From Isoetes taiwanensis (taxonomy: Eukaryota; Streptophyta; Lycopodiopsida; Isoetales; Isoetaceae), in NCBI GenBank assembly GCA_021234155.1, contig JAJEKV010000057.1, positions 4,929,821-4,993,820 of the forward strand: 64,000 nucleotides of DNA. Direction: 5' to 3'. Every line of letters begins with the position of its first letter. Positions within the stretch are counted from its first letter, which is position 1. A program made the translations under genes and the position numbers. A model generated the notes under the pieces. It made no database searches. It was given only the letters and a program-made list of their open reading frames with translations, and was not told where the DNA came from. Shown piece by piece: positions 2,484-24,244 of the stretch.

Positions 2484-2493
2484 CAACCTCTGA

Positions 2494-4831: not shown

Positions 4832-4839
4832 AACTGAAT
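4832..4839. repeat. Left target-site duplication of the giant hAT
   Basis: AACTGAAT lies directly before the terminal CAGGG of the element. The identical 8-mer follows the other end at 24237-24244. Eight bases is the standard hAT duplication length. Confidence 0.93.
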
Positions 4840-4852
4840 CAGGGATAGGTTC
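4840..4852 (+). repeat. hAT left terminal inverted repeat
   Basis: CAGGGATAGGTTC, inverted exactly at 24224-24236. Beyond 13 bases the two ends stay only loosely alike, sharing short blocks such as AATACATAT, AAATACGT and a GGCG-A-rich block. Confidence 0.92.
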
Positions 4853-4949
4853 TGTACGTACGAAATTATTTTTCCAGACATATAAAGTCCAAGAATACAT
4901 ATTTTTAGGTTAAATACGTATTTTTCGTATTTTTAACCGCTGGCGAAAA

Positions 4950-5240
4950 AAAATTGGCGTAAGTTTAAACCTTGAGGTTAAAACTGCGAAAATACCAGTT
5001 TAAAGCTTAAGTTTTGCTTACCGAAAACAAAAAAAGGTTTGGCGTAAAAGCGAAAACCCGAGGTTAACCGAAGGTTTAAACTTTACGCCGAAACTTTTTT
5101 AGTTCAAGGTAAAGCGGTTTTGAAGGTTTAAACTTTACGAAAGGGTTTTGCATAAAGCAAAGCGATGGTTTTGCTTATGCGAAATTTTTTTTATATATAT
5201 AGAGGCGCTGTTTCAATTTTTTTGCGCAGAACAAGGTAAT
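4950..5240. repeat. Left subterminal repeat block
   Basis: Dense diverged short motifs such as GGCGTAAA, AAGCGAAAA and GCTTATGCGAAA, ending in a GGCGCTGTTTCAA block. The right subterminal region (23840-24120) has the same motif family in cleaner form. In characterised hATs such as Ac, subterminal repeats are transposase binding sites. The same role here is inference. Confidence 0.7.
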
Positions 5241-6209
5241 CCTTCTGCACCCTACTCCACAACCTGTGCCCCTTTGCTTTTTTTTTTTTTTTTTTTTTTA
5301 TCTTTTTCTTAGTTTGTAGGCAAACTTAGTTAGTTTTTTCTTGTTGTTTCTTTTATTGTAGGTCTAGGGTTCCTCCATAGTGAGGCCCTCGCCTGTTGCC
5401 CCCCTCCATCGAGGGGCGTGACGATGGTGAGCGTCTTGTTCTATGGAAGAATCCAGACTGATTTTCGTAGATAGTTGAAATTATAAAAATATTAAAAAAA
5501 AATAAAAATAAAACAAAAACAAAAGAAAAAAAATAAGAATTAAACATTTTGTTGCCTACCCTTTTTATCGACAACAGTAGTAGTTAGGGAGTTGATCAAG
5601 AGAGATTAGGTTTTAGAGTTTCAGCAGTGATCCTTGACTAAGGCAGTGATCCTCGCCTGGTGTGCCACATTGAATTGTGCCATGCCGAGTGTGGGTGTCA
5701 TTGCTGATGTCGAGGATTGCCAGGGTTAACCTTTCATGGAGGTGTATAGCCCTCTCCTGGTGCCGCTTGTTGGCTTCGGTCATCAGGAGGATATTTTAAT
5801 GAGATATACCCTATTTTCTGACGGTGTTGTTGATGAAAGTCCAACACTAATATAGGGATTGGCGTATATTTCATTAAATATTCGTGAGTTTGCCAGGTGG
5901 TCAAATGCAATATGTTCAGTTGAGTGCAAACCTCTATGAGAGAGTTTCCTCATGGAGTCAGTAGTTGGGTCAGATCATAAGTTAAACTTGTTGAAGCGAA
6001 TGAGAAAAATGCATTTCCTATAATCGTGAACCGTGAAACTCAGTAGATTAACCATAGGGTGCCTATAACCGTTAACTTGAAACTTAGTAGGGTTTAGGGT
6101 ATAACCGTCAAACTTGAAACTCAGTAGTTTACTAGAATCTTGATGAACTATTTCACTGCTTATTGACACTCACTAAAGTGGGGGTTTTTTTTCCCCAGAC
6201 TTTTAGGTA
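5241..6209. other. Spacer inside hAT, leader of the kinase gene
   Basis: Contains a T-run (5279-5300) and three diverged repeats around GAAACT(C/T)AGTAG at about 6030-6140, interspersed with ATAACCGT. No coding domain seen. It may contain the promoter or leader of the kinase gene, but I cannot point to a start site. Confidence 0.35.
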
Positions 6210-6260
6210 TTGTTGTTGCTTTGGCATATTGCTAGCTACATAGTTTCTTCTAAAGTTGCT

Positions 6261-7980
6261 ATGAATCCACAAGAGTTAGAAGGACTTAGACTAGAAGCAG
6301 ATCCTCACATGAGCCCCAAAGAAGGACCTAGGCTAGAAACAGAGCCTCACATGAACCCAGAGGCTCTCTACTCAAATGAAGAGGAAAAGATCAAGACCCC
6401 AACAGCCATGGTCTTCCTTAAGACCTGCTTTGATGAATTAGCTCTGTGAGCGAATATGGGCCGCCACACCATCTGAGCTAGAGTTGATTACTACAACAGA
6501 CGAAGGATGGCTAGACTTCCACTCAACTCTCATGAAAGATGCTGAGAGAGCTTTTGGGCCTCGAATGATAGAGCTAGAACATGGAAATATTGATTCTGAA
6601 AGGTATGCTTGGATAGATGGGAATGTATCCCGTACAACTGGAAATATGATTCATGCGGTGGCAAATTTAACTAGTCCGCGCTTGAGAGAGTCTCTAAAAG
6701 ATAAGGTTGTGGAATGGAATACAGCTTGGACGAATCGAAAGCTTATAAAGGAAACCCATCAACCCTTCCACCTAGTTAAGAAAGTGTTGGCACAGACTAT
6801 TAGAGCCAAGCGTCCTGGTGAGACTGGTAAAGGGTTGGAAAAAAGAAAAAGGGCAGATGCCAAGACTATATGGTTTGCAATGGTGCATTCCTCTCATATA
6901 ATCAACAGGACTAGAATTGGTTCAGGAACATATAGAACGGTGTACAAATGCAATATCTTGAGTTCTAGTTTTCTTAAAGACGAACCCTATTGTGTTAAAT
7001 TTCAGAATGATGATGTGCGGTTAGGTACGGTGAGGCCTGATGTGATAGTAAAGGCCATGATGAAAAACATGAGGGAGTCGCAAATGTAGGTTAGACATGG
7101 CTCTATCATACGCTGCATTGGTCGTACAACTGGGTTCGAAAGAACAGGGTTGATATTTCCTTACTGGAATGGGGATTCTTGTGCATCTCTTTTTGTGCAT
7201 CATGGAGATAATGAGTTTGCGAGGCATGCATTTAAAAGATTAGGGTATAAGCCTAGTGTCGAGGTCGACGTCCATAAGCTTGAGCAACGAAGGAAGCAAG
7301 AGTTATATGTTGCTCAAAGAGTGGGTGATCTAACTATGTCGTTTTTAAGCGGCTTGCTTAAGCTTCATAAAGAGCACCATTTACACATGGACTTGCACCC
7401 AGGCAATGTCTTGCTTCATTTTGACTTTGGGAAAGAGAGAGGATGCACGGACCCCCAGGCTATTTATATTGGTATATGTGATTGGGGAGAAGAACGGCTA
7501 ATAGGTGAGCCTGTGGAAGTGAAGCGGTGGGCATACAAAGGCATGGATGGTGCTGCCAAAAAGGCGATTGAGAATGAAAGACTTGCCTATCCATACATTC
7601 ATGATGATTTGTATTGGGGTCCAAAAAGAGATGGAACTAAGATGGTGCCTGCAAGGGTAGATTTCGACCTCTTAGGGGCAGCCTACTTTATCTATTACCT
7701 TGCTAATTTTGCACACAAGCATTCTTTCTTGAAGGCTATGGGTACCACTGAACAAAGCCAGAGGTTTCGAAACATGTGCGATTATTTGAAGCACTGTGTC
7801 GAATCCCCAATACGAGACAAGGCACGCAAGTTTGATCTGAATCAGCTACTGAACACCATGCGGAGCACTTGGAATTGCTCTCAAACACATTGCACAAGAC
7901 ACCAAATGGAATCAGATTGGATTCCTCAAGTTGGGTTAGGTGCAGACGATGCTGACCAAGCTGGACCAAGTCACGCTTAG
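6261..7980 (+). pseudogene. Divergent protein kinase (hAT cargo gene 1), one frameshift and one stop
   Basis: Encodes a kinase-fold protein of roughly 570 residues if read through two lesions. The N-terminal part (6261-6449) has two repeats of the form EG-RLE-PHM-P. A one-base shift near 6440-6447 moves the frame into an otherwise open reading frame to 7980, broken only by TAG at 7087-7089. Kinase landmarks are the glycine loop GSGTYRTVYK (about 6919-6948), VKF with the ATP lysine (about 6994-7002), the catalytic loop HMDLHPGN (about 7384-7407) and the metal-binding CDWG in place of DFG (about 7477-7488). The key K, D, N and D are all present. It is not a typical plant receptor kinase, and the HxDLHxGN loop resembles that of atypical kinases. 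I do not recognise the family. The next gene lies 232 bases downstream on the same strand. Confidence 0.72.
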
Positions 7981-8212
7981 CGTGCCATTTATGAGCTCTC
8001 TTGTATGCAACCAAAAAAATTTATTGATTGAACAATTGCTTTAGACACATTTAATAAAACGTCTTTGGCATTTTTATGTATTTATTTTTGTTGCACTTGA
8101 TCTTTTTTATAATTTATAAGTCATATTGAGTTGTTTTTTATTTTGCGCAGTTAACATAAAGTGTATCCGCAAGAAAACGAACAAACAACTTACCTAGTCA
8201 CAAACAAAAAGA

Positions 8213-9668
8213 ATGTCTCAACAACCGAGTTCGTCTCATCAGCAAGATACTATTTCTTGTCAGACGAGAGAAGGGGCTGATGAAACTGGGCAAGGAGCCA
8301 ACTTCTCCTTCCCGTCCTCTTTGAGAACTCCAGATGACTTTGTATTCCCTTCTCTACCTACATTGTCGGAGGTTAGGGCACAACAGCTACAGAGAGCAGA
8401 GAAACATACTAGAATAAATGAAGCGCGTGCAAAAGAGCTGGTGAGGTTGAGGGCAATGGCAGAAGTGGCCAAGAAAGAAGGTGTCACAATTACAGAAGTG
8501 CATGGAGTTGCATGTGACATAAGCCCAGGTTGTTGCCCGCATGGAGCGGATTATGAGGATATCAAGGCCAATAGAGACGCCAAATTGTTTGACGCCGACT
8601 GACCAAGCAGGAGAGCAGGTAAGTATAAGGCATACGACTGCAAGATCCCTAAAGTCCGAGCTAAAGCTTTGGAGAGGTGGGTCCAAGTGAAAGGAAAGAT
8701 GATAAAAAACCATGAATTCAGCAAGACGTTTGCCAAGCAAGTGTACTATGAGATTGTGAAAGGGAAGCATGTAAATTATGCTAGCAGAAAATGGAAACAA
8801 GGAAGCGGTAGTGGTAGCAGCAAGAGAGTAAAGCTCGTGAACGATTCTGAAAGCGCTCTTGGTGATGAACCCGTGACTATAACTTATTTGCTTCAAGATG
8901 CCATAAAACTTTTAGATGTGGCGGGGGTTGCCGCAGCAGGTGCAGTGACAGAAGAGGTGGATCTGAAGGCTCAGCTAGAGAATGAAAGAAGTCGAAATCT
9001 TACTCTGTCAGAGGAAAACTTGCGCTTAAAAGACCATGCAAATGCTCACGACAAGATGGCTGTGGAATTACTAGACACGAAGAATCAACTTGCAGCTTTG
9101 GGTAGGGAAAACACGGAGAGTAGACAATGAGCATATGCGCAGTTTGACCAGAGCCTTAGATTCTGATCCCCTTAGAGTCTCGAAGGAGCAGGGTATTGCA
9201 TACCTCCCTCCCGAATACCTATATGAGAGCCAGTGGGAGGATGTAAAGAATGGGGACTTCAGATATTGTCAAGGTTGTGGGGACAATCTGACCCAAGTTG
9301 GTTGGTATGCCTTGGGATGTGGACATCATCTGCATTTGAGGTGTTTGTTAGATTGGATGATGGGCAGTAGGTTCTGTCCAGCAGAGGATGGATATATTAT
9401 ACTAGAGTGCCAGTATGTCGTGCTCAACATGCAATCACGGAAGCCCCTCTTGCCACCTCTGATTGCTCGCAGGAGGGATGGAATGGCTCACGCGTTCCAT
9501 ACCCAACGTGAGATGGACCTTTCGAGGGGGGTGGAAGAACCGCGTGAAGGTGAGGAGGTACTAGACATTAACCAGTACCTGCCTCCCGTTCCTGGGCCAG
9601 CAGGTGATTGGGTGAACCCTGGTGCAAACGTGGTGGTGGAGGATCAGGACGATTACTTAAACCCATGA
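8213..9668 (+). pseudogene. Coiled-coil protein with C-terminal RING-like domain (hAT cargo gene 2)
   Basis: One ancestral frame runs from ATG 8213 through TGA 8600-8602 (the same frame stays open to 9130), then shifts one base at about 9100-9125 and ends at 9668. The N-terminus is polar (Ser/Gln-rich). The centre has a basic KRVKLV patch and a long heptad-like coiled coil (LKAQLENERSRNLTLSEENL onwards). The C-terminus has a zinc-binding pattern C-x2-C (9268-9279), CxHxxHxxC (about 9318-9344) and CP (about 9374), matching a RING-H2 finger. The usual last Cys of CPxC is replaced (CPAE), so one ligand is missing or supplied by a later Cys. If functional it could be a ubiquitin ligase. A GGTAAGTATAAGG donor-like site at 8620 could instead mean that the TGA region is spliced. 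Family not recognised. Confidence 0.65.
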
Positions 9669-9964: not shown

Positions 9965-10007
9965 ATGCCAATTAGGATTAGTGGACTAACTGTCATCTCT
10001 TTCACCC

Positions 10008-10134
10008 TGGCTTAGTCTCTTTTGTTTGTCCTGTTTGATGTATCTAAATTGCCCCCTAGGATGAGGTCGCTCACTCATTTTAGGTGGCAGTTTAGATATA
10101 TTCAAATAGGAGAATCGAAACGGGAGTAAGCTTA
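10008..10134 (+). ncRNA. Hairpin H2 of the hairpin cluster
   Basis: Arms about 10008-10066 and 10072-10134. The best-paired part sets TATCTAAATTGCCCCCTAGG against TTTAGGTGGCAGTTTAGATA. In the inner 37 bp I count five G.U-compatible differences, no A.C differences, one other mismatch and one bulge. The very small loop gives an almost continuous stem of 55-60 bp. Confidence 0.65.
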
Positions 10135-10220
10135 CCCTCTTGAATGGTTGTCAACTCACCAGGCTTGATATTCTTCGTGGCAAACAATATAGATTTCTCG
10201 AAATTCTTGTTACCTCCTTT

Positions 10221-10347: not shown

Positions 10348-10364
10348 AGAGGTAAAAGTTCTCG

Positions 10365-10671: not shown

Positions 10672-10817
10672 ATTGATGAGTGAAAGCATCGAGACTTCCC
10701 AATTTTTCTTTCCCCGCCTCTTTGGGCAATGTAGCTTAGTTTACATTCTAAGTTCCATTGTCCAAAGAAGCGTGAAAGCAAGATTTGGGAAGTCTCGATG
10801 CTTTCACTCTGATATTC
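10672..10817 (+). ncRNA. Hairpin H5 of the hairpin cluster
   Basis: Contains a perfect 25-bp stem: 10678-10702 (GAGTGAAAGCATCGAGAC...) pairs exactly with 10785-10809. The stem continues imperfectly inwards to a terminal loop near 10740, for about 65 bp in all. A perfect 21-25 bp segment near the base of a 146-nt fold-back is the geometry of a plant miRNA or young hairpin precursor. The inner half is paralogous to H3. Confidence 0.72.
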
Positions 10818-11094
10818 CTTGAGGCAGCTGATGGTTCTTGCCATGCTATAGGCCACTATGTATGAACAATACAGTCGATCATGGCCTTGTGATCCTTCCT
10901 TGACCACCGCATCTTCTAGACTGATCCATTCGTGATTGTTTCAACCCTTCACATGCAAAGATTTCTTTGGAGCAAGATTCTGTAGCACGCGAAGGGAGAA
11001 ACCATAACAGAAGTCAATAAGGTGCGGTGGTTTCAAAGGGAGGTTCTCAAGGAACTCAGGTCGAATGTCGAACCCGAATATCACTTGTTCCATT
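10818..11094. other. Linker between H5 and H6 with gene-fragment copy
   Basis: A weak fold-back (10820-10905, ATAGGCC against GGCCTTG) may be a further hairpin. From 10971 the sequence is a copy of the stretch at 11408-11508 (both start AGCAAGATTCTGT(A/G)GC). Read on the minus strand it encodes ...FLENLPLKPP... and ...SLRVLQNLA, so it looks like a piece of a protein gene. The second copy preserves DFRCCLPLRMPQNLA in another frame. Confidence 0.4.
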
Positions 11095-11330
11095 GTCCCG
11101 TCCACTAGATAGGTAAGGCGTAACTCCGATATGCCAAATGTGTGTTTGAATGCCATCGGGATCGTGTATCTGTACCTCCATTCCTTTGGGTGGCACCTGC
11201 CATATAAACCCATTAGGTATGTAGAGCATGTGCCACCCAAAGGAATGGAGTACAGATATAGGGTCCTGATGGCATTCAAATACCAGTTTGGCGTACCGGA
11301 GATACGCCTTACCTATCCAGTGGATGGGAC
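11095..11330 (+). ncRNA. Hairpin H6: long fold-back made of a duplicated coding fragment
   Basis: Arms 11095-11196 and 11230-11330, about 101 bp with a 33-base loop. The loop end pairs CTCCATTCCTTTGGGTGGCAC with its complement (one bulge). Both arms encode related peptides in opposite orientation: plus strand ...PPKGMEYRY..., MAFKYQFG and RLTYPVDGTM; minus strand CHPKEWRYRY, MAFKHTFG and RLTYLVDGTM. So the fold-back is an inverted duplication of a coding fragment. Arm differences are about seven G.U-compatible against two A.C-type. Confidence 0.7.
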
Positions 11331-11407
11331 GATGTGGATCATGTGCCTTATGAACCCTCTTTAGGATCACATTCGTCCCAACTTGGCATGCGTAGATTAC
11401 TTCTCAT

Positions 11408-11508
11408 TAGCAAGATTCTGTGGCATGCGAAGAGGCAAACAGCAACGGAAGTCGAGACAAATCTGATCCGAGGAGGGTTCTCAAGACACTTCGGTTAACT
11501 CGGCAATG
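11408..11508 (-). repeat. Second copy of the gene fragment flanking H6
   Basis: Direct imperfect repeat of 10971-11067, starting AGCAAGATTCTGTGGCATGC and sharing AGGTTCTCAAG/AGGGTTCTCAAG. It lies between H6 and the end of the hAT transposase remnant. Confidence 0.6.
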
Positions 11509-12740
11509 AAAAGCTTATAGTCCGAGCTGTTAGGATAATACATTTTTGCAATTTCTTCAATGAACCCATCACTTCTTTATCTATATGCTGGTCCATATCG
11601 TGGTTGTGTGGGTCTAAGGCATGTGCGGCGCCATAAAGATCATTGTATGACTTCTTCCATCGTTCATTGAAGCCTCTGAGCAGTGTTGCGTGCTTAACAT
11701 TGCCAAATGGTGCATTGGGGCCATCACGTTCTAGAAAGGATTGAATGGAGTGCCAACACCTCCAGACCTTTCCAGTGCTTGCCTTCGAAGAATCAAGGGT
11801 TTTGATGGCATGACAAACAGGTTGCATGCATCTGACAACATTCTTTACGCCTTTCCAAAATGTCTCCCGCCCAAGCATTTCTCGAAGGGCAGCAGCTTGC
11901 TGCCGGTGTTTTGATGCATTTTTGCCCTTCTGCCTCCTCTCCCATTCAAAGAACTCTGTATGGTTGAAGGTCGAGATAATTGGGTCGCGACACCTAAGCA
12001 CTTTTTCAAGACAAATGTAATTGGAACCAAACCGAGTCTGGCCAGGATTCATGAGTGCTAGGGCCTTCTGACGCAATGACTTGTAGCTTCTTTGTGATGA
12101 ATTTCACAAGACGACGGGCCTTTTGAATGGGATCTTTGAACCAAGTGTGCTGTGAAAACCAGTCCTTGAGCAATAAGTTTAGGCAATGGCATTGGCAACT
12201 GGTCGCATGCAATCCTGGAAATTTAGACTCCAACAATTCACCCGCTAACTTACAATTAGACGCGTTGTCCATTATGACCTGAAATATTCTCTTCGGTCCA
12301 AAACTCTCTATCACAGCCTTTATTTTTTGAAAAATCCAATCTCCTGTCACCTGATCAGTTTTAGTTTCCACGATCTTCAAAAATACTTCGCCCCCTGGAT
12401 AGACGATCATGAAGTTTATAAGGTGGTCCTTGTTTACATTGCTCCAACCATCAGTCACTAGTGAAGCCGGCCTGGCTTCAGTAACACGACACAATTTCAT
12501 CTCCACACTCTCGAACATTTTCCCGTGTATTTCATCCACCATTTTCTTATTGGCATGCTTGTATGATGGCAGCCTGAAAGCCGACCCCGCTTTGCAACTT
12601 CTTGGAAGGTTTCTTTCATTGCTTTGTGTTCTAAGACATGTGGAGACAATCCGGCATATAAAAATGCCTCTACAACCTTCAATTGCATGAATAGCAGAGT
12701 ATGTAAAGAACAAGGTTTTAGTAATTGGAACATGGCATGA
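11495..12740 (-). pseudogene. hAT transposase remnant (DUF659 region and following part)
   Basis: On the minus strand, 12560-12080 encodes a DUF659-type segment found in plant hAT transposases: LVTDGWSN (near 12448), VIMDNASNCK (near 12265) and CQCHCLNLLLKDW (near 12180). The upstream FLYAGLSPHV block is in a different frame, so there is a shift near 12600. Another shift near 12076 moves into the frame ending at 11495, with GQTRFGSNYICLEKVL, the FEWERRQKGK region and LHPLDPHNHD-like residues. The C-terminal dimerisation domain is missing. It lies inside the giant hAT and may be its own former transposase, though its orientation is opposite to the BED ORF at 14045. Confidence 0.82.
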
Positions 12741-12940
12741 AATTGGCAGACAGAGTGAGGATATGAAAAGCAGAGTACGTAAAGAACAATAGTAATTGGA
12801 ACATGGATTCTTTGAGGATATGAAAAGCAGAGTACCTAAAAAACACAAGGTTTTAGTAATTGGAACATGGATTTTGTGGTGATATGAAAAGCAGAGTATG
12901 TAAAGAACAAGGTTTTAGTAATTGGAAATGGATTTTGGAA
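12680..12940. repeat. Tandem repeat, about four units of 55-65 bases
   Basis: Units contain AAAGCAGAGTA(T/C)GTAAAGAACA, TTTTAGTAATTGGAA and CATGGATT. Copies lie near 12696, 12765, 12825 and 12888. They overlap the beginning of the transposase remnant and probably replaced its upstream exon. Confidence 0.7.
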
Positions 12941-13079
12941 TCAGCTTTGCATACTTGAAAATACATGCATTGGAATTTATCTGTTCATTTTAGCAAATTC
13001 AATAGACAAACAGGTTCTTTCCATTGCCTTTGAAGAATGACAACGTATAAATTTCAAAACATACCCTCATTTATTCATC

Positions 13080-13740
13080 AAAAGTAAAAAAGCACCAACA
13101 GTTTTTCAAACACAACAAATAGTAATTTAACAGGAACTACGTCACTTATTGTAAAAACCACGCTTTGAGAAAAACAATACGGCATTTAGTTATAAAAAAT
13201 GTGTTGTTTATTGTAAAAACCACACTTAAAAATATTTATATCTATAAAACAACATGTGATTTTATGTAAAACAATACACGAAAACGACCGTTTTTTTTTT
13301 TTGAAAAACCACAATTGTTTTTCTTAAAACCACATATTATTTTTTGAGGAAATGACACTTGGAAACAACATAGCTAAAGAAAAAACCCAGAAAACTACGT
13401 GTAGTTTCTAGCTGCTTTTTGCAAAACAACATTCAAAAATCACATGTGGACATATTAAGAATCACATGTCTATTTTTCAGGAAAGCAACACTTGAAAACT
13501 ACAACTACTTTAAAAAACAACATGTAGAAATATATGGCAATTTCTACGTGTAGAGAATTTTGACAAAATTCTATGCATAGACTTTTGGCAACAAAAACTA
13601 CATGTATAAAATTTTCGCTAAAAACGACACGTCATTTCTAGCAAATCTGGACAAAAAACAACACGTAGTTTTTTGGTGTTGTTTTTTTGCAAAAAAAACA
13701 CTGAAAAACAACATGTGGACCCAGTTTTGGGGTGGTAGTG
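13080..13740 (+). repeat. A-rich AACCACA-type array, internal copy
   Basis: Degenerate short repeats of AAAACCACA, ACAACATGTGG and ACACGTAG type, ending in GTGGACCCAGTTTTGGGGTG. The array at 22690-23705 ends in almost the same sequence (GTGGACCCAAAATTGGGGTG), so the two are copies of one module in the same orientation. Confidence 0.65.
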
Positions 13741-13944
13741 ATACTCCTTGGGAAACGGTCAGCCTTTGAGGTGTGGGTTTTGCGTTCGGGGCCTGACGCC
13801 AGAATATGTGAAGTGAGATTACTCCTTCACAGAGTTTTCCGACCTTGGGTTCCTACCCTGTTCCTTAGAGACCTATAGGTTCCTATCCTTCCCTCCTTAC
13901 GCTCGAACAAGACGTCGATGTAACGTATGCGTAGTGAGCTTGCT

Positions 13945-13960
13945 CCTTCGCATATATAGA
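13945..13960 (+). promoter_or_regulatory. Possible TATA box of the BED-finger ORF
   Basis: GCATATATAGACG lies about 90 bases before ATG 14045, a plausible TATA position. A motif GTGAG(A/C)TT(A/G)CTCCTTC occurs twice just upstream, at 13813 and 13936. Confidence 0.35.
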
Positions 13961-14044
13961 CGTCGACCTTTAGTTCAGACGATTAAGGAGTCTTTACCCT
14001 TTAGAATAGCAGAGCAGAGACAGTGCTTTTAGATAGCAGCAGGG

Positions 14045-14821
14045 ATGGCAGCTGGTCATGCATCTACATCAGGCGGCACTGGTGGCTATGCATCTACGTC
14101 CCGCGCCGCCGGTTGTCATGCATCATCATCTAGGGGTGCGCGATCGTCGCGCGGTCATGGCAGGGCCACGGGGGTTGCAGCAGCACGTGGAAGAATTGTA
14201 TGTCGAAATACTGGTGGTCGAAGGAGAGGTCCTGAGTGGGGATTTGTGAAGGAATTTGGTCAGAATGAGTGGCAATGTGTGTTTTGTGGGTACACATCAA
14301 TAAATGGATCTGCGACAAGAATACGAGCTCATCTTTTATGGGACTCTAAAATTGGGGTACAAACTTGTATGGCATCTGCTGACATACGACAAGATGCAAT
14401 TGAAGTGTTGGGTCGAAAAAAGAACATCAGCAGAAAAACACAGCCAAGGGATAGTCAAGGACCTTCACCGTGCCAAGCAGAAGAGATCAATTACACCACC
14501 CCTCCTGCAGCGCCAATGTACCAACCAGAGGGTGGAGTAGGGTCGATAGGAGGGTTAAGTACGGGCGAAAAAAGAATGGTAGAGACAATTGAAATAGTGG
14601 AAAGACAGACTAAGCAACAGAGGGTTGACCAGTGCTTCAGGCATGGGGCCGTTGGTTATCTGGCTGTGGTGCCGTTGCAGCGAATTCCTCAGAGCTTAGT
14701 TCTACCTCCATTAGATTGGCCAGCAACAAAGCAAGGAAAATTGGCAAGAAATAAGGCAAGTGGTATCAGAAGAGCAGGACCGATCCAATCTGGCCGAAAA
14801 TTTAAGCTGCAGGTGATATAA
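14045..14821 (+). CDS. BED-type zinc finger ORF, N-terminal part of a hAT transposase
   Basis: 258 residues from ATG 14045. Residues 1-50 are Ala/Ser/Gly/Arg-rich with a repeated (H/Y)AS(T/S)S motif. Residues about 60-105 form a BED-type finger: WGFVKEF then WQCVFCGY, RIRAHLL and a closing Cys, the form found at the N-terminus of plant hAT transposases. No catalytic region follows on this strand. The frame ends in a tandemly duplicated 45-base segment (14769-14813 and 14820-14864). So it is either a truncated transposase or a stand-alone DNA-binding protein. The catalytic remains lie 1.3 kb away on the opposite strand. Confidence 0.68.
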   Translation: MAAGHASTSGGTGGYASTSRAAGCHASSSRGARSSRGHGRATGVAAARGRIVCRNTGGRRRGPEWGFVKEFGQNEWQCVFCGYTSINGSATRIRAHLLWDSKIGVQTCMASADIRQDAIEVLGRKKNISRKTQPRDSQGPSPCQAEEINYTTPPAAPMYQPEGGVGSIGGLSTGEKRMVETIEIVERQTKQQRVDQCFRHGAVGYLAVVPLQRIPQSLVLPPLDWPATKQGKLARNKASGIRRAGPIQSGRKFKLQVI

Positions 14822-17816
14822 GAAGAGCAGGACCGATCCAATCTGGCCGAAAATTTAAGCTGCATGTATTCAATCAGTGGCTACTATGTCTGCTACTGCT
14901 TGCTCCAGAGAGCTGGCCAAATGGGCGCCAGTGCAAGATTGGCCAATCCCAAGATCTGTAAGACTACAATATGAGCGCAGCGCCAAAGAACAAGGCGGCA
15001 AGCGACAAAGCAAGGAAAATCGGCAAGAAACAAGGCAGGCGGCAAGAAAGAAGGCGCCAAAATCGATCTGCGCATAAACACAAAATTTAACCTAAACCAG
15101 TAGGATGTTAGGACCAGGATCACGATCATGGCCATTCATCTCTGCCTCATCTCTGCCGTTGAAATGATGCACTAGGATGCATCCATTTTCTTTAATTGTT
15201 CTCAAACTGTCTCTGTTACCTTAAGTTATTATTCTAAATCTTATTAAACAAAGCTTGTTAAAAAAGTTTTGTGCTTTTTTCACCCACAAATACACTTTCT
15301 GAATTGGCAACCTATAACAAACAATGAGTCAGATGAAAAGACGCAATTGCCTTCTTAGATTTATAGATCTTATATCACATAAAATTTATTTGCTTATTAG
15401 TTGGGTATACCATGGTTGTTAGGAAGGGGCAAGGCAGAAGGAGAGGGGACTGGTTAAACAAGGGGGAGGGGAGGATGGGGCAGCATGGAGCAGTAATGTA
15501 AAGAAAGAAGGCAAGCCCATGTGACCTTTGCATGAACTCCATTTCTTTTCACGTGACTAGCAGTAAAATTATTCATTCGTTATTTTCATTTCCTTGTTGG
15601 CTTTTTTTGCATCTTTTATTTCTGACCATTGATCTCTGGAATATTCCGTGTTCTATGCCACATCAAAGGCCATTACATTTTTCATCAACAGTTTGCTTGC
15701 CACTTCCAATGGTCCAAACAGAACACATGATTAGAAGAAGAAGAAAAAAAAAAGCGAAGGCAGCCTGTGCCGAACCAGACTGCCGGCCTGCCTCCAAGCC
15801 CGCCTTCTGCTGGCATCCATTGCCCCTCAGACAGAACACATGGCAGCGCAGATGGTAACACTCATACCAAACCACCATGAACTGCCGGAATCAATCCCCT
15901 TGCAAACCCTGCTCTACCTGTATGTAAAAGCCAAGGCCATAAGATTCGGCTCACTATGTGTGTGAGCCTACTCTGACATTCTGATGTCCCCTTCAATCCT
16001 TGCTCCAAATGGCCAGATTTTCTCCCCCATTTCCTTCAAATCTATGAATTCCCTCTACACAAGGAAGCAGGCTATGATTTGGCCGCGATGATCTAGGCAG
16101 GCCATGGATTTGTTTTATCCCCCTCTTCCTTTTCTGACCTGGAATCGGATGGCTGATTTGATTATTGTTAAAAAAAAGATTCAAAACATACGTAAGATCA
16201 ATCACACCGCTCTTTTACAAAGCAGGCTCCACTGGGATCCATGGCCGCGCCTGCTCAAAAAAGAAAGCAGCATGCTTTCTTATCCTTCTATTCTCAAGCG
16301 ATGCATAGAAACAACAAGAAAAACACATGCTTTAGCCAATTTTGGAATGCTACCTTCATCTCGGCCAACAAGCAGCTCAAATCAGCTAAAAATATGCTTT
16401 GCATACGATTTTCCATACAATACCCAAGCGAAATCTAGGTTAAACCATGCGTGAGATACAGTCCACAAATACCAAACGAAATAATTGGAAGCTTTGGTCA
16501 AACTTCATAACCACAACATTTTTCAAACCTAGCCATGGGTGGCTTTTTTTGGGGATGTATTCATGCCCTAACACGCAAAGTTTAAGCAAGTGCATATCAT
16601 GGAATGATTTTACCATACGCGAGCTTTAGTATTTCGACTAAGAATGTGCACTTAAGGTTTTATTTTAATAGTTTGATTATTATATCGTGCCTTGGGGCAA
16701 ATATAGATTGAAAGCTAATTTTAATTTTTCACCAATATGTATGTCTGATCTTTTTTGTCTAGAAACCAACTACAGAAAAAGAACAATTTTCTTCTTACTG
16801 AGAGGTGTCTCAGAAGCCTCAATGAAGTCTTCATAGTTCCTTATCTAACCCTTTTAGTAGATATAATAGAGCCACTTGAGTTTTTTTGGTTATCTTGGAC
16901 TAAAAAAATAGTAGCTTTAATAACATCATCGATGTAGCTAGCATAGGTCGTTAACAAAGGGTAGTTTAAATGATAAGATTGATGTTAGTAGCATAGGTCA
17001 TCGGCATTTCAAAACTTGCTTCTTGGAATTGAGCATGGAATCATTATGCTTTTGAATCGAGCATGGGAGTCTGAATAATCAACAATAAAATTGGATGCAC
17101 AACAAACCCTACAAGGAACCCGTCATGTACATCAATATATACACCCAAGGTCAAACTATCTAAGGCCCTATATTAGCAACATCCACAAACCCTTGGGGAC
17201 ATTCTGCCCCTATTCAATTTATTCTACGTTGGACAAGGTGATCGCGTATTTTCTGACCTAACATATGTTGTTACAAAATTACATCAATATAAACTATCAC
17301 AATATGATAACATCTCAATCTCACACATTCGTCGTATAACAAATTGGGACTTATAAAGACAAAATACCATAGATCTTCTGACACATACCATTTACATTCA
17401 AAGCATTAAAACACACACCCCAACTCTTTGATTCACATGTTCTAAACTGGCACTAAGCTGACTTTTGCACATGTTCTCACACGCCCCAACTCTTTGCTTT
17501 CACAGTTTTGAACAAACACTAAGCCAGATTTGCACAAATTCACTCCTGTAATTGCCCGTAAAGAGAAATATTCGCGGGGACTTAGTCACCGCGATAAATT
17601 TCTTGTATATGGTAATTCCTGAGCAACATTGGCAAATAGAAGGAGCCAAGTGACTTCCACAATAGAAAATAAGCAGTTGATTCTAACCAATGGTTAAAAG
17701 ATGTAACTTATGAGGTCTTGCGAGAAGTTATCAGGCTATCTATTGGGCAAGAACATAAATATGTGTAAGGGTAATATAAAAAACTAGACTTTTTAAAAAC
17801 CTAGATTAACTCATAG
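14822..17816. other. Spacer inside hAT
   Basis: Begins with the repeat tail of the BED ORF (AAGCAAGGAAAAT(T/C)GGCAAGAAA twice, near 14732 and 15010). The stretch 15594-15671 is identical to 44046-44123. No credible gene is seen in the remainder. Confidence 0.4.
15594..15671 (+). repeat. 78-bp sequence identical to 44046-44123
   Basis: Starts TTGTTGGCTTTTTTTGCATC and ends CATCAAAGGCC. It is identical over 78 bases to the second copy, and the flanks differ completely on both sides. Confidence 0.85.
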
Positions 17817-17853
17817 ATTCTAGAATGGGGCTCGCATGAAACCAACAAACCGC
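17817..17853 (+). repeat. Short repeat, second copy at 18528-18565
   Basis: TCTAGAATGGGGCTCGCATG and the following bases to AACAAACCGC recur at 18531-18565. It may mark the edges of a nested insertion. Confidence 0.7.
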
Positions 17854-17995
17854 TAGACTAGGCTTCTCATTCATCTCAGCAGATTTTCTACAATGGTGGA
17901 TAGTGGGTAGCCGCACACATGCGAACTACCCATGAAAAATAAAGGGAATATCCAATTATATAATTTGGACCCCATAAAATACAATGCTAATAGAT

Positions 17996-18108
17996 GTTTG
18001 GCTGGTGTACCTGCCAAAAGCTTATCACCGGGATTAAAAAACCCCGCCCTTTCGGGTTTTCGAGGAAAAACCCTAGTGATAAGCCTTTGGCAAGGGGCTT
18101 GGACAAAC
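17996..18108. repeat. 113-bp fold-back (MITE- or hairpin-like)
   Basis: GTTTGGCTGG...CTGCCAAAAGCTTATCAC pairs with GTGATAAGCCTTTGGCA...GGACAAAC. The arms are about 38 bases, with further pairing of AACCCCG/CGGGGTT type near the tip. No clear target duplication, so MITE status is open. Confidence 0.6.
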
Positions 18109-18342
18109 GTAAGGCAGAGAAATCGCTCCCAAAACCCACGAATGGAGAAGTCGAAAGAGATGCCGCTCGCCAACCTGTACCTGTACATCACCAACACAAA
18201 AAAACGTGACAAAACAAGCCTCCCAGAGTGGAGGAGCTGATCACGCGTGCCACGCGACAATAAAACAAAAACCTCTTCAAATAGAGGGGCTGGTCACGCG
18301 TGCCAGGCGACAAATACAATAAACAAAGAAGGGGGGGAGGGT

Positions 18343-18907
18343 GGGTTCAAAGAAAAGAGAATAAGGTACTGCTAAGAGAGAAGAGGAAGCGCCGATGAGA
18401 CGTTGATGCAGAACCGCGCCTAAAATAGCGAACTCCCAACCAGAAAGGGCATGCGTCGCATGCATGCATGCAAGACATGCATGCTCACCCCATTCTAGAA
18501 TGGCGATCCGATGTCTCGGATCGATGGGATTCTAGAATGGGGCTCGCATGAAACCAACAAACCGCCCAAATACCAAAGGACTTCCTTAATAAACTGGGAT
18601 CGAGGACGAAGGTCACAGGATGAAGGCTAAAGAAGAGCCAAGGCCGAGAAAGGACATGCCACAGCATGAAAGAAATGCCAAATTGGCCAAACCAAGCAGG
18701 GAGAAGCCCCTCCCCTGCCTGGGTTCAAAGAAAAGAGAATAAGGTACTGCTGAGAGAGAAGAGGAAGCGCCGATGAGACGTTGATGCAGAACCACGCCTA
18801 AAATAGCGAACTCCCAACCAGAAAGGGCATGCGCCGCATGCATGCATGCAAGACATGCATGCTCGCCCCATTCTAGAATGGCGATCCGATGTCTCGGATC
18901 GATGGGA
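18343..18907 (+). repeat. Pair of 187-bp direct repeats
   Basis: 18343-18529 and 18721-18907 are nearly identical, both starting GGGTTCAAAGAAAAGAG and ending TCGGATCGATGGGA, with only a handful of substitutions. Each contains a GCATGCATGCATGCAAGACA run. The 191 bases between them begin with the 18531 copy of the 17817 repeat. Confidence 0.85.
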
Positions 18908-21900
18908 GTATCATAAGTTTACCTATTCAGTTCACAATTTCTATGGATCACTATCGCAATGACAAGGTGTGTTTGTGATATATTTTGCAACTGCATTCAA
19001 GGATCGAGGTTCAATCAACATATAATATAATGAATACATATAATATAATGAATATATGACCAAATATGACAATAAGTAGATCAGACTAGAATCTTACATA
19101 CATTAAACTCATATTATTCTCATGTGGTAACATATGAATACCTTGCTTAATCTTGATCTTACTTATAATACTTTTTCATCCCCCAAAAAATAAAGGGGTG
19201 CACCTCTCTATGGAATATCGTTTTGAGAAGGGACTTAAGTAGTAGTCTATCAAGTGTTCAACTCTTATTGAGTTCACATCTGAAATAACACGTCGAGTTC
19301 TTCATTTAACAATTTGGCACATAAAAAAGTGGGCATGATTGTAGAGGGGTTTACTTTTTGGGAACATCTATCAAAAAATGTTTTCTAGTTTTTTAGCTTT
19401 GAGTTTAGCTTCTAGATGATCAACATGTTGCTCTAGCTTTTGCATTTTGGATTTTGCTCATATGATGTGTGCTTGATGTAGTGCCTTGCATGGAAGAGAT
19501 GTGAAATAATCAAATTTGAAATAAACCTAAGCCACATATTAACAAAGATGAACAAGAAGGCAAAAGACACTATATCTTTGAGGAGAACGAAGGTAATGCA
19601 TATAAATAGAACACTAAACTTTATAAGAATGTAATTTTGTGACAATGGCTTGCGATTTGGCAATCCTTGAAGTCTAGCCTTCATATTGCAAATGTATGTG
19701 TAGTTGAAACTGAGGAATTATAATTGAACCTGAGACCCAACTGATGAGAACGTGATGAATTGGGGAAGGTGCCAGCTCTTCTATCAGACTCAATCACCTT
19801 GGCATGTTGGAGCCTAGATGGCATGTTGGTGCCTGCGTGGCATATTTGAGCCACCTTGGTGTTTGAGACAGAACTGGCCTTAGCTTGAGGATTTACATGG
19901 TTTTTATAAGCCATAATGAAAATTTACACTGGACTGTTGAACATGGACGTGGCGAAATTGGGTATTACAGTTGTCAAACTAGATAGGACAAAAGCATGTT
20001 CTTCACTGACTAGGGATTTAGGGATTCTTATCTGTATATGTGAACCATTTTGTTTCCACAATCCCGGGATACATGGACCGTAGCTTTTGTTGAATCGGCC
20101 ATATGCTTTCTCAATCATCTCCAGCAGACACATTCCACGCATCTTTTGATGAAATTAATGGACTGTCCTGCATTATGTTCCATCCAACGCATTATTCTCC
20201 AAATCACCAGGATCTATTTCACTGGAATTTCCTGCATTGTAGCCTAGAACTTCACTTACTAAATAAAAATAATCTTTTCTTTTAGTAACCGCTTTGCAAA
20301 TTCCTTCACATTCGCACATAAGAATAGGATATGGCTATGTAATCCTGATGCACCTACATTTAATTCTGCGTGCCAGCCTTTATCTAATAAGCAAGACCCT
20401 CCAGTAAGTATTTCCATAATTTATTTTGGTGTCAAACTCTGTAATGCCTTCACTGCACTTGTCTCGATTGGATGTTGAAGGTGGAAGGTGTTGTACAGGA
20501 CTATCCTGTATAGTAATAAGGTCCCTTTCAGTGCAACCTAGTCTAATACATTGGACAAATAAATCAACTCCAGTTTGCCCTTGTTAACAACCTGCATCCA
20601 TAACACAGATAATAGGTCTTCTCACTTTTAAGAACTTTCAAATGGCATAAACATACTTTGACACAACTCTCCAACTGATTGTTTGCCACTTCCAACTTCA
20701 TTGCGTTGCCCTTTATTTTAATATTTTCTTTGTTCTCACGCCCGAGACATGTATGAAAAGACTTCAAATGTGATGCAATTTTCTGATGAGATGCTTTCTT
20801 ATTTGGTATGTATCTTTCCACATCACGTGCATGGCTTTCTAATCTGATATTGCTGACATATGCTATGGTATTTAAATTGACATATGCTGTGGTATTTGAA
20901 TCGACATATGCTGGACCACTGCAATTATCTTTATTATTGTTTCCAGGTTTGCTTGATAATTGCCTAGCTATTGGCCATGAAATTCTTTTTCATGCAGCTA
21001 TTAATCACTCATTTTTTCCTGGCCTTGGAATGCCTGCACCTTTTGCTGCCGACAACAAACATGGCTGATTGTCCTAACATAAAGAGAGCATGGTTGTGCC
21101 TAGATTCATGAGGCAATATAGCATACTAGATAATAGTATATCTGAATCAAATCATAACATAGTCCAGTAATGACTAGAGGTAAGACGTGTCTTGAGATAA
21201 AAACTGACTTGACGTAGTCTAAGAACTTCATTCCGGCCAACAAATCCTAAATGCTTTGAAGACATCTAAAAAGATAAAAGCATCTAGCTTCTTTTCCATT
21301 GAAATCAATTCCAATGTTCTACCAAGACTTTTTTTGTTGAAGGACGTCAGACTTTATTCAATCAAAGAGTCAAATACAAGTATAAATGCAGAGACAGGAA
21401 TAAAATCTCAGCGGATAAGCGGAGACCCACCGAGTGAAGCAACCTGCCTAAGCATAAGAGTGCACATCCAAAAACTCCTCAAAAATCAATCGCCTCTTGC
21501 GAGGGGCAAGTGAAGAACAATGATACGACTTTACAATGTAACCTTGAGCTTCTTGGAGAACACGATTATCTGCCACATCCAGACCTTTGAAGATTACCAA
21601 TCTTCGTCTTTTCAAATAGGAATTGGACAGATAATTTCTACAGTTTTTGATTATTGAAACTAATCAACCTTAATGATACCTTAGCCCTGCATTGCCTGCA
21701 GGGCCGCAAATGTTATGCACTTTTCTAACAGTTCCTCATACATGATCTTATTCTTCAAGACTCCTGCATGGCCCTCCTCATTAGACTATGGTTCACAAAT
21801 GCAAATTCTTAAAGGAATCAAATAATATTAGTCTTACAATCTCCTTGAAAACCTTTCCCTTGAAAACCTTTCGAGGCAGGGGTTTTTTAATCCTAGTAGT

Positions 21901-22689
21901 AATGATTGTACTAGCCCATTGTATGGGTCCCATGACCTATTGGTCTCCGTGGACGTTAAAAAAACTATTCTATTCTATTCTATTCCTTGGGATAGCTCAT
22001 ATGCTCCCCAGTAATTGTCTCATAAAGGAATATATATCTGCCAGTTTAACCACTAAATGAAAGAACATGGTAAACTAACAGGATATTAATCAGGGCTGAG
22101 AATATAAACCTCCAAGCAAGTTCACAGACAAGGTCAGCTGGTGCAGGAGGTAGCACTTGCAAGCTAACCTATCAGCCGTGATAACAAAGATATACCTTCA
22201 CGACCCTTCTTTTTCGCCGGAAGCAGATCTTTCGGACATTCTTCCAAATCTCTGAAGGCCTCGAATTATGGAGCTACAGCAGCCACCATCGCCAGAACAC
22301 CACACCGGTTACCCGGTTTCCATGTGACTGCCCAGCAACAGAAATGACCGACAGTTTACATGCAATAATGGGTTTGGAGCAGTCATTGGCATATTCCGGG
22401 CATATACTGGTATATACTTGGAATATGCGACAAACCCATATGAACGAGGGTTTTCCTCTTAGGGGCAACCCGAAAAAAGAAATGAAGGTATTATAGAGAG
22501 TATACAATTACAACATTCGGACACCGTAATAAAACATAATTGACAAGATAATAACATAATTGCAAAGGCATAATAACAAAACTAATTGTATATCATATTC
22601 AATAAAATTAAATAAAAGCTTTCACGTGTGCAAGAAGTGCTGGTTTTTTTAAGACATATACGTATACGTGTGCAAGAAGTGCGTGATGA
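18908..22689. other. Spacer inside hAT
   Basis: No gene recognised. CATATGCT(A/G)TGGTATTT(A/G)AA repeats near 20855-20914. A small hairpin at 22389-22428 pairs GCATATTCCGGGCATATAC with GTATATACTTGGAATATGC. Short open frames here have no recognisable content. Confidence 0.4.
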
Positions 22690-23705
22690 TATAGTCGTGC
22701 TTGCAAAATCAGCTATAATTATAAACTACACCACTTCAGAAAATCACTCCTTAAAAAACAGCCATTTAAAAACTACACCTACTTATAAATCACACCTCAA
22801 AAAACCATATTTCCTTAAAAAACTACACCTGCTTATAAACTGCACCTCAAAAAACAGCACCTCAACTTAAAAAATCACACCACTTCAGAAAACCATACTT
22901 CCTTAAAAAATGCTACTTAAAAACTACACCTGCTTATAATCCACACCTCAAAAAACCATACTTTCTTAAAAAACCAGCTACTTAGAAACTACACCTGACC
23001 TCAAAACCATACTTCCTTAAGAAATAGCTAGTTAAAAACTACACCTAGTTATAAACCACACCACTTCAGAAAACCACATTCTTTAAAAAACAACCACTTA
23101 AAAACTATATCTACTTATAAACCACACCTCGAAAAATCATACTTACTTTAAAAGTTAGCTACTTAAAAACTACACCTAGTTATATAAACCATACCTCAAG
23201 AAAACCATACTTCCTTAAAAAATAGCTTCTTAAAAACTACACCTAGTTATAAACTACACCACTTCAGAAAACGATCACTAAAAAATAGCCACTTAAAAAC
23301 TACACCCACTTATAAACCACACTTCAAAAAACCACACTTCTTTAAAAAACAGCTATTTAAAAACTACATCCACTTATAAACCACACCTCAAAAAACAACA
23401 CCTCATTTAAAAAATCACACCACTTCAGAAAACCATACTTTCTTAAAAAACAACCCTCGAAAAACTATACTTGCATAAAAAACAACTACTTAAAAACTAC
23501 ACCTAGTTATAAACCACACCTAAAAAAACAACACCTTCTTAAAAACAACACCCCCTCAAAAAAATAAACGACACCTCCTTTAAAAAAAATCACACCTCAA
23601 AAAAAGACCACACCTTAAAAAAAAAAAATTTATAGCTCCTTAAGGTCTTTGTTTTACTGTTGTTTTTAAGTGTGGACCCAAAATTGGGGTGGTTATGTAT
23701 GTTGA
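22690..23705 (+). repeat. Tandem array of AAAACTACACC / AAACCACACC units
   Basis: About a dozen diverged units of 75-85 bases built from AAAAACTACACCTACTTATA, AACCACACCTCAAAAAACC and ATACTTCCTTAAAAAA. It ends in GTGGACCCAAAATTGGGGTG, as does the internal copy ending at 13740. Strongly C- and A-biased on this strand. Confidence 0.8.
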
Positions 23706-23845
23706 CTCGACCTGGTAGTCAATGTTCGAGGTGAATTCTAGGGCTAAAAACGTTTTTCTTATATATAATAATTCACCTGCTCAAAATAGACCAAACAGTG
23801 GCGCAAATTTTTTTTTTCCCTTAACAAAATGCCCTAAAATGCTTT

Positions 23846-24120
23846 GCAAAATTTTGCGTAAGCGAAAACAACTGTTTCGCTTACGCGAAGATCTTTTCGC
23901 GTAAGCGAAACCTTCGTTTTCGCTTATGCGAAGTTTAAAAAGTTTCGCATAAGCGAAAAGAAAATTTTGCTTACGCGAAACTATTTTCGTGTAAGCGAAA
24001 CTGTTGTTTTCGCTTATGCGAAAGTTTTTCTGCTTCGCGTAAGCAAAAACAACGGTTTCGCTTACGCAAAACAATCTTCGCATAAGCGAAACTGTTGTTT
24101 TCGCTTTTGCGAAATTTTTT
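23846..24120. repeat. Right subterminal block of GCGTAAGCGAAA palindromes
   Basis: About fourteen near-palindromic units of the form TTTCGC(T/G)TA(A/T)GCGAAA, in both orientations, directly inside the right end of the hAT. These are clean versions of the motifs at 4950-5200 and are likely transposase-binding repeats. Confidence 0.8.
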
Positions 24121-24223
24121 CGACGCCGGAAATGTTTTTGGACGTATTTTTGAGGTATCATACGTCAAATTTGTGCCGTATCTTTCGAAGAATATGTATT
24201 ATGTATAAAACATATACAGTATT

Positions 24224-24244
24224 GAACCTATCCCTGAACTGAAT
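24224..24244 (-). repeat. hAT right terminal inverted repeat and target duplication
   Basis: GAACCTATCCCTG (24224-24236) is the exact reverse complement of the left end. AACTGAAT (24237-24244) repeats the left flank 4832-4839. Confidence 0.93.

Follow-up and report, generated by a model that had tools for sequence, protein, structure and literature searches.

A defective member of a high-copy hAT transposon family in Isoetes taiwanensis, probably with kinase and RING-finger genes of its own

The locus and its ends

Within the window (the whole 64,000-nucleotide stretch of Isoetes taiwanensis DNA that was analysed) there is a hAT insertion spanning 19.4 kb. It contains genes for a protein kinase, a coiled-coil/RING-finger protein and a transposase, with three hairpin-forming repeats (H0, H1 and H2) placed between the 3' ends of the RING and transposase genes. 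The features are as follows.

4832..4839, unstranded: left 8-bp target-site duplication AACTGAAT, present just once at the empty site on contig C963
4840..4852, + strand: left terminal inverted repeat CAGGGATAGGTTC
5147..5190, unstranded: left subterminal repeat of the TTCGC..TAAGCGAA family (D4), one related copy
6442..7980, + strand: protein kinase gene, disrupted by an in-frame stop at 7087-7089 and with an altered Gly-loop residue
8198..9668, + strand: coiled-coil/RING-finger gene, disrupted by a stop at 8600-8602 and by a shift of frame between 9075 and 9130
10003..10136, + strand: hairpin-forming repeat H0
10673..10814, + strand: hairpin-forming repeat H1; MFE -86.9 kcal/mol, z -15.1
11087..11338, + strand: hairpin-forming repeat H2; MFE -190.5 kcal/mol, z -22.9
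11490..12686, - strand: DUF659 and a portion of the catalytic region of the hAT transposase, convergent to kinase and RING
12687..13740, unstranded: part of a CACTA-like element, turned by inversion; CACTA terminus at 13740
13741..14637, + strand: inverted N-terminal part of the transposase
14638..23697, unstranded: other part of the CACTA-like element; contains repeats at 22.7-23.6 kb and ends at 23697, followed by TAT
23848..24120, unstranded: right subterminal array of TTCGC..TAAGCGAA palindromes
24224..24236, - strand: right terminal inverted repeat
24237..24244, unstranded: right 8-bp target-site duplication AACTGAAT

The initial annotation of this DNA had described exact 13-bp inverted termini, an exact 8-bp duplication and subterminal repeats of one family at both ends, and all of these are present, the last as an array on the right versus a single relative on the left. 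The right array is the probable transposase-binding region. Each strand of the window has a single CAGGGATAGGTTC, at 4840 (+) and 24224 (-), and AACTGAAT is present at 4832 and 24237 only. When exact 13-bp inverted pairs with identical flanking 8-mers were sought at spacings of 0.2-30 kb the hAT ends were the sole pair in the window, and none occurred in 30 first-order Markov random windows. The 8-bp target-site duplication and the short terminal inverted repeats are those of the hAT superfamily.

Both ends are common in the genome. The exact 21-bp left end has 915 copies (463 + 452 on the two strands) and the exact 22-bp right end 323 (168 + 155), with no copies of either backwards-read control. 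Eight copies, including that in the window, were paired via both ends; their target-site duplications agree at 8/8 positions in six, 7/8 in one and 6/8 in one, with the left end of C1018b set one base further in for this scoring.

The joined flanks of the insertion (query 1-212, joint at 160) match C963:19440395-19440606 across the joint with 99% identity. This locus is a paralogous empty site with one AACTGAAT, such as the initial annotation had proposed to look for. Over the 378 bp adjoining the insertion the flank shares 98.4% identity with the empty site, and over the farther 2.1 kb 91%. On the right flank of C963 about 250 bp with no counterpart in the window starts some 60 bp past the site; beyond it the two sequences align again, at 91%.

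A nested CACTA-like element and the length of the hAT unit

About 10.1 kb of the 19.4 kb belongs to a nested CACTA-like transposon, with ends at 13740 and 23697 and a TAT target-site duplication, that is split by an inversion of 13741-14637. It has the CACTA terminus, inverted ends and 3-bp duplication of its class; the ends match at 22 of 27 bp and differ at five, the other end reading CATAA. The 21-bp CACTA terminus has 203 exact genomic copies (98 + 105; control 0), and the uninserted CACTA site is present in two relatives, C1075 and C1018a. Pfam found no transposase, of TnpD type or otherwise, in the seven open reading frames of at least 100 amino acids within 14638-23697, as would be the case for a non-autonomous or a decayed element alike.

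The underlying hAT unit is about 10 kb, the nested insertion accounting for about half of the total. The initial annotation had read the locus as a giant, cargo-carrying hAT of 19.4 kb. It was right that this is a single hAT with extra genes inside, and that nested insertions could explain part of the length, but the size of the unit has to be halved. What looks like a giant cargo transposon at a single locus can consist of a multi-gene element of medium size with another nested in it.

It is unlikely, but conceivable, that the composite including the nested CACTA-like element transposed to this position in trans as a single giant unit. Because the flank next to the site remains 98.4% identical to the empty site whereas the CACTA ends differ at 5/27 positions, the CACTA may have inserted first, which would suit such a transposition. 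Against this, the two CACTA ends need not have been identical to begin with, and flank identity falls to 91% over the farther 2.1 kb. Moreover, the inversion junction at 14637 had no second copy among the 40 scored of 528 candidates.

Three genes in a fixed arrangement

All three genes are damaged in the window copy, by stops or frame changes in the kinase and RING genes and by loss of the C-terminus of the transposase. DUF659 is found with an E-value of 7.7e-29 in the open reading frame at 12006-12914 (Pfam). About 0.94 kb of the transposase of the relative C1018a, including the SASERNW motif and the C-terminus, is missing from the window copy; the missing region is that in which Dimer_Tnp_hAT (PF05699) is found in C1018a, at 5.2e-9. 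At the positions that we take to be the catalytic D, D, E motif, the first D is conserved in 11/11 rows, the second in 10/11 (the frame of C1075 differs) and the E in 8/9 of the rows covering it, which exclude those of the window and C1038. The N-terminal part at 13741..14637 contains a Cys-x2-Cys ... His motif of Cys2-His type, which may be BED-like; Pfam reported no BED family for the window or its relatives.

Relatives of the kinase are about 575-590 amino acids long, and those of the RING protein about 450-490. The genome contains at least 136 match rows for the kinase and at least 152 for the RING protein, on many contigs and many with stops. The kinase piece in the window scores below the Pfam Pkinase cut-off (2.2e-4), while the relative L001 lies above it (4.2e-8), as do members of both lineages described below. 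The catalytic residues are conserved (Lys 24/24, HxD Asp 25/26, Asn 26/26, DxG Asp 26/26). With a Gly loop, Lys, HxD...N, DxG and a Pfam match above cut-off, the relatives would by their sequences belong to the protein kinase superfamily. Searches of the PDB with a kinase profile gave nothing at 1e-6, and a single sequence gave 0.0016 at best.

For the RING protein the window piece is below the Pfam cut-offs, L001 is above one of them (zf-C3HC4), and this family scores just above cut-off in relatives from both lineages. Seven Cys/His positions are conserved, one in 14/15 sequences and the others in 15/15; the last zinc ligand is atypical, reading CPxxD in 15/15. The best PDB match is an E3 ligase, at E = 0.0035. 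NCBIfam returned no families.

The order of the genes recurs. In 61 of 136 listed kinase rows a RING match follows the kinase in the same orientation at no more than 20 kb, in 55 of these within 2 kb, and two pairs have the wrong order or strand. Kinase or RING matches stand on the expected side and strand at 26 of the 39 other listed places with transposase fragments; among the matches listed they are inverted at 1/39 and on the wrong side at 0/39. Thirteen of the 39 (the inverted one included) have no expected-strand kinase or RING match within 20 kb. At 12 of 39 other listed right ends a kinase or RING match lies upstream, no more than 25 kb away and on the same strand, and in one it is inverted. 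For H1, kinase or RING is matched upstream and in the same orientation at 30 of 39 other listed places; of the remaining nine, two have a match on the other strand. Since the unlinked transposase and H1 places come from lists of best matches, they reflect the limits of the search as much as biology. The kinase, RING and hairpin segments therefore do occur in other copies, contrary to the outcome that the initial annotation had named as fatal to its reading.

The family comprises two diverged lineages, A and B, with common ends and transposase and with the kinase-RING pair between those ends. Other large copies with both genes measure 9.4-17.0 kb in lineage A, in support of the initial annotation, which had proposed a search for copies of 10-25 kb. 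In C1018b the alignment is unbroken at 90% from the left end through kinase and RING to H0 and H1. None of the copies examined, in a non-systematic look, had all three frames open.

Between the lineages the proportion of differing four-fold sites is 0.60 for the kinase and 0.64 for RING, compared with 0.20 at second codon positions. From this contrast in the sequences, both proteins are shown to have undergone purifying selection, in sets picked for open frames: 27/28 loci for the kinase (L025, with two stops, left out) and 17/22 for RING (C1018a, C1018b, C1025, C1038 and B907, all below 250 amino acids, left out), with C918 and C1035 not entered. NG86 dS between lineages is 0.66 for the DUF659 part of the transposase, 0.77 for the catalytic part and 1.45 for the N-terminal part, and about 2.5 for the kinase, a value inflated relative to the four-fold sites. 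We considered exchange of modules between the lineages and rejected it, as the contrast in dS rests on three lineage-B rows per segment and NG86 inflates large dS.

Current selection on the hairpins as RNA was rejected: single-copy transitions were wobble-making in 64 cases and mismatch-making in 53, against 85 and 86 in the flanks (Fisher p = 0.47). The majority state has 22 G-U versus 6 A-C pairs (p = 0.004). Because the single-copy bias is absent despite this G-U excess, the pairing may carry at most an ancestral signal of selection. Covariation is slight (1/47 pairs in H1, 4/43 in H0). The 21-mers of the hairpin arms, allowing up to three mismatches, had no match in the window outside 10000-11500, and Rfam gave no matches.

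Origin and possible role of the extra genes

We consider the locus to be a defective member of a high-copy hAT family whose unit of about 10 kb has three genes, encoding a kinase, a coiled-coil/RING protein and a convergent DUF659/Dimer_Tnp_hAT transposase, and put the probability of this at close to 0.9. By cut-and-paste the transposase would move the unit; derivatives of short length and defective copies would be mobile in trans only. Least certain is that the kinase and RING protein aid the element itself. They might modify the transposase, or use phosphorylation and ubiquitylation to disable host proteins of silencing or checkpoints, as VANC serves VANDAL. A more specific and tentative proposal, which we think somewhat less probable than its negation, is that kinase, RING and same-direction hairpin RNAs form a kit for host manipulation, selected at the level of the element for escape from silencing or for timing of transposition. 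The data suggest that some DNA transposons carry signalling tools of their own.

Selection would also be expected if the kinase and RING genes were a host pair kept for the plant and spread by the hAT, since dN/dS is silent on who benefits. We regard this as distinctly unlikely, given the at least 136 and 152 match rows over many contigs, many with stops, and the position of the pair between the same hAT ends in both lineages; nor was a single-copy host form seen among the best candidates scored.

The initial annotation had compared the element with Pack-type transposons and called its extra genes non-transposon genes. Such a non-autonomous hAT would carry recently captured fragments of host kinase and RING genes neutrally. 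Both genes are of host-type families and broken in the window copy, and transduplication by grapevine hATs is reported in the excerpt of PMC2528002. Nevertheless this origin is very improbable. The element encodes its own transposase, on the opposite strand, and the kinase-RING order and distance recur. Because the fixed order and orientation are found in two lineages together with purifying selection, across a four-fold difference of 60-64%, the genes are not Pack-type passengers. They do lie inside, as annotated, but belong to the element family and have long been kept by it.

Kinases and RING proteins can also occur in large viruses, and the pair could in principle derive from a separate mobile or viral element that became nested in the hAT. 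The alignment, which continues without a break from the hAT end across both genes, makes that a slender prospect, and two peptide patterns each found no relatives of the kinase in viral and prokaryotic contigs. Finally, that the two ends derive from different elements and match by coincidence merits almost no weight: the family ends are common, yet the identical 8-bp duplication at both sides argues against it, and the empty site with one copy contradicts it.

A limited search of the literature found no hAT with a selected kinase plus RING, while cargo hATs are known (ToxhAT, hAT-H3, Hatvine-6). In the excerpts available of the sources cited here, retained accessory genes of plant DNA transposons are met in Mutator elements (VANC, ULP1; PMC13317346) and in some CACTAs (ULP1; PMC2528002). 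If our reading is true, hAT would be another superfamily with signalling or ubiquitin-type tools of its own, kept over 60-64% four-fold divergence, and the kinase and RING would be a concrete pair of proteins for testing how transposons handle host control.

Among comparable elements are the Kaonashi/VANDAL MULEs, DNA transposons with long-retained ULP1 and VANC, the latter having an anti-silencing function; as excerpted, they belong to the Mutator superfamily and encode other proteins, whereas the Isoetes element is a hAT with kinase and RING, known by sequence (PMC13317346). ToxhAT, a fungal hAT of 14 kb carrying ToxA, is likewise a large hAT with a non-transposase gene, but this is one effector gene, unlike the two signalling-type genes of the multi-copy, two-lineage Isoetes family (PMC12506042, in part). 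Another fungal element, hAT-H3, captured and amplified a host-type gene, that of histone H3, whose copies were inactivated by RIP according to the excerpt, in contrast to the purifying selection on the Isoetes kinase and RING (PMC6710886). The Hatvine families of grapevine are plant hATs that share the short inverted ends, 8-bp duplication and hAT transposase, and Hatvine-6 is of variable length with captured sequences; relative to their description in the excerpt, the Isoetes hAT differs in its two selected extra genes, unit of about 10 kb, convergent order and hairpin repeats (PMC2528002).

Ends, target site and nested insertion

The hAT copy at 4832-24244, target-site duplication (TSD) included, has 13-bp inverted ends and an 8-bp TSD that form the sole such pair in the window; none occurred in 30 Markov windows. 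Inspection of the window bore out these ends, the TSD and the subterminal repeats described in the initial annotation. That annotation had also suggested looking for an empty site with one TSD copy, and such a site was found on contig C963, where the joined hAT flanks match positions 19440395-19440606 at 99%, spanning the joint, and AACTGAAT is present once. The flanks (window 4462-4839 and 24235-26302; locus L054 on C963) are duplicated on two large scaffolds, with the hAT in one and not in the other.

Flanks shared with C963
Window 4462-4839, 98.4% over 378 bp
Window 24235-24296, 98.4% over 62 bp
Window 24289-26302, 91.1%, beginning past about 250 bp absent from the window

In other copies of the family, window 14637..13741 (reversed) comes at most about 25 bp after the transposase segment (window 11490-12686), and 23697..24236 comes next. 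The window copy has 13741-14637 inverted relative to these, and carries two extra blocks.

12687-13740, extra block, 1,054 bp
14638-23697, extra block, 9,060 bp

At their outer ends the blocks carry CACTACCACCCCAAAACTGGGTCCACA and (reverse complement) CATAACCACCCCAATTTTGGGTCCACA, each flanked by TAT, and the uninserted site is visible in the copies C1075 and C1018a. We read the two blocks as a single insertion, CACTA-like and about 10.1 kb long, that was subsequently split by an inversion. One breakpoint would lie within the insertion and the other between transposase parts, and about 24 bp would have been lost. Exact copies of the 21-bp CACTA end number 203 in the genome (control 0), and the junction at 14637 occurs in none of the other matches scored. 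The element had been proposed as a giant hAT of 19.4 kb; its ends and TSD are real, but on our reading the extra blocks are the nested insertion, without which it is 9.28 kb. This agrees with the accompanying suggestion that nested insertions explain part of the length. The window copy also lacks another 0.94 kb, found in C1018a between 6357 and 7302, that encodes the C-terminal part of the transposase. A 78-bp stretch of the nested element (window 15594-15671) is 100% identical to window 44046-44123.

Copies of the family

The genome searched (G000) comprises 1,658,258,908 bases in 1110 contigs. The left 401 bp of the hAT gave at least 44 matches (best 40 of 1074 candidates scored) and the right 400 bp at least 117 (best 40 of 1385); the exact end patterns occur 915 times (left) and 323 times (right), with controls at 0. 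Among the end places listed, 12 same-strand elements of 266-3974 bp were paired by eye by their ends alone (on C59, C152, C165, C173, C222, C311, C322, C325, C357, C387, C423 and C445), and short derivatives therefore seem common. These short forms with the same ends span 0.27-4.0 kb, an example being C59:247273-247538.

Ten loci were fetched on kinase, RING or end matches, seven from lineage A, with which the window belongs, and three from the diverged lineage B (one extended). Eight copies, window included, could be paired by both ends, and the TSD is perfect in six of the eight, the exceptions being B954 and C1038.

Copies paired by both ends
Window, 19,397 bp, TSD 8/8
C1075, 10,269 bp, TSD 8/8
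C918, 16,974 bp, TSD 8/8
C1018a, 9,604 bp, TSD 8/8
C1018b, 10,273 bp, TSD 8/8
C1038, 9,389 bp, TSD 6/8
B954, 6,708 bp, TSD 7/8
B907, 11,228 bp, TSD 8/8

Three loci were left unpaired: C1025, whose left end falls beyond the sequence retrieved; C1035, which over its first 4.4 kb shows no match of at least 80 bp to the window; and B1049, which lacks a correctly oriented right end. The 17.0-kb C918 copy (L003+L004) seems to hold a nested insertion of its own at reverse-strand 6789-13272, parts of which resemble window 17817-18904 at 66-74%. In C1018a (L005+L006) an inversion within the element (reverse-strand 2077-4546) takes in the kinase and some of the RING gene; this element has both ends and a TSD of 8/8.

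Kinase and RING genes

The kinase and RING genes belong to the hAT element. The kinase search gave at least 136 match rows (best 132 of 1347 candidates scored) and the RING search at least 152 (best 150 of 834), some rows being fragments of a single copy. The linkage counts are lower bounds because they are taken from the matches listed. Using 150 RING rows, a RING match lies downstream within 20 kb, on the same strand, for at least 61 of the 136 kinase rows (no more than 2 kb away for at least 55 of them), and two pairs among the matches listed have the wrong order or strand. Among 40 listed left ends, those of the window and at least four others have a kinase 2.2-2.5 kb downstream, in two more the distance is about 15 kb, and in one the kinase is inverted; for the remaining 32, most of them matches of just 100-200 bp, no kinase is listed within 25 kb. 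Of the 39 other right ends, at least 12 are preceded within 25 kb by a kinase or RING match on the same strand, and one further end has such a match inverted. At no fewer than 26 of 39 transposase-fragment places a kinase or RING match lies on the expected side and strand; one further place has it inverted, and at none of the 39 is a listed match on the wrong side. The conserved cargo that the initial annotation had asked after is thus present in other copies.

Both genes are broken in the window copy, whose kinase piece by itself falls below the Pfam cut-off. In relatives the kinase has about 575-590 aa and scores above the cut-offs in both lineages; in frames covering the catalytic residues, Lys is kept in 24/24, the HxD Asp in 25/26, Asn in 26/26 and the DxG Asp in 26/26. 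The second protein has about 450-490 aa in relatives, with a RING near the C-terminus that is barely above the zf-C3HC4 cut-off. In the 15 of 17 frames that cover the ligands, six Cys/His positions are conserved in 15/15 and one in 14/15; Asp appears to take the place of the last ligand (CPxxD, 15/15). The transposase is recognized by DUF659 in the window (7.7e-29) and Dimer_Tnp_hAT in C1018a (5.2e-9).

Lineage B has its ends and gene order in common with lineage A. Its kinase and RING genes have about 68-69% DNA identity to the window; in L013, L014+L050, L051 and L053 the hairpin repeats (74-90%) and the DUF659/catalytic segment (85-88%) are closer to lineage A. This mixture may perhaps reflect module exchange. 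We compared open frames, selected for openness (kinase 14 A and 13 B, RING 10 A and 7 B). Over 182 kinase and 70 RING A-B pairs, which are not independent, four-fold distances are 0.60 and 0.64 and second-position distances 0.204 and 0.197, respectively. Within lineages the ratio of second-position to four-fold distance has a median of about 0.3 (95% points 0.5-1.6). NG86 dN/dS for the kinase is 0.27 and 0.20 inside the lineages and 0.09 across them; for RING it is 0.25 and 0.22 inside the lineages, with dS saturated across them. The contrast between four-fold and second positions, together with dN/dS, shows that both proteins were under selection while the element diverged.

hAT transposases bind subterminal palindromes and ends, move the unit and leave 8-bp duplications. 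The transposase of this family probably does likewise, binding the palindromes and ends, mobilizing the unit and making its 8-bp TSDs. Since the kinase and RING genes are kept together with the ends in both lineages, they may serve the element; they could act on its own transposase or on factors of host silencing.

Hairpin repeats, known elements and neighbors

Hairpin-forming repeats lie between the 3′ ends of the RING and transposase genes.

10003-10136 (+), H0
10673-10814 (+), H1
11087-11338 (+), H2

The predicted RNA fold of H1 reaches -86.9 kcal/mol (z -15.1) and that of H2 -190.5 kcal/mol (z -22.9). Of the 39 other H1 places that were scored, at least 30 are preceded within 20 kb by a kinase or RING match on their own strand, and two have one on the opposite strand; at the 26 with a RING match, H1 starts 0.57-1.77 kb past it. 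In 26 of 29 hairpin copies it is the kinase/RING strand that folds better; this strand has 160 G-U against 48 A-C pairs, the copies not being independent. A larger set gives 22 G-U against 6 A-C pairs in the majority state (p 0.004), but no bias among single-copy changes (64:53, control 85:86). This is a weak hint that the hairpins acted as RNA, and only in the active ancestor; the transposon may have a hairpin RNA locus at 10003-11338.

Other hATs that are large or carry genes are already known. Examples are the 14-kb ToxhAT (PMC12506042), a fungal hAT with a histone H3 gene (PMC6710886) and Hatvine-6 (PMC2528002), all of which the present family resembles in being large or gene-bearing. Accessory genes of Mutator elements are reviewed in PMC13317346; the word kinase is absent from its main text. 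Among the papers listed in a partial literature search, none described a hAT carrying a kinase and RING pair under selection, which would be the new feature here.

Elsewhere in the window, and in keeping with a plant origin, lie a PTR2/POT transporter gene (28608-30198) and a glycosyltransferase family 92 (GT92) gene (41497-42261).
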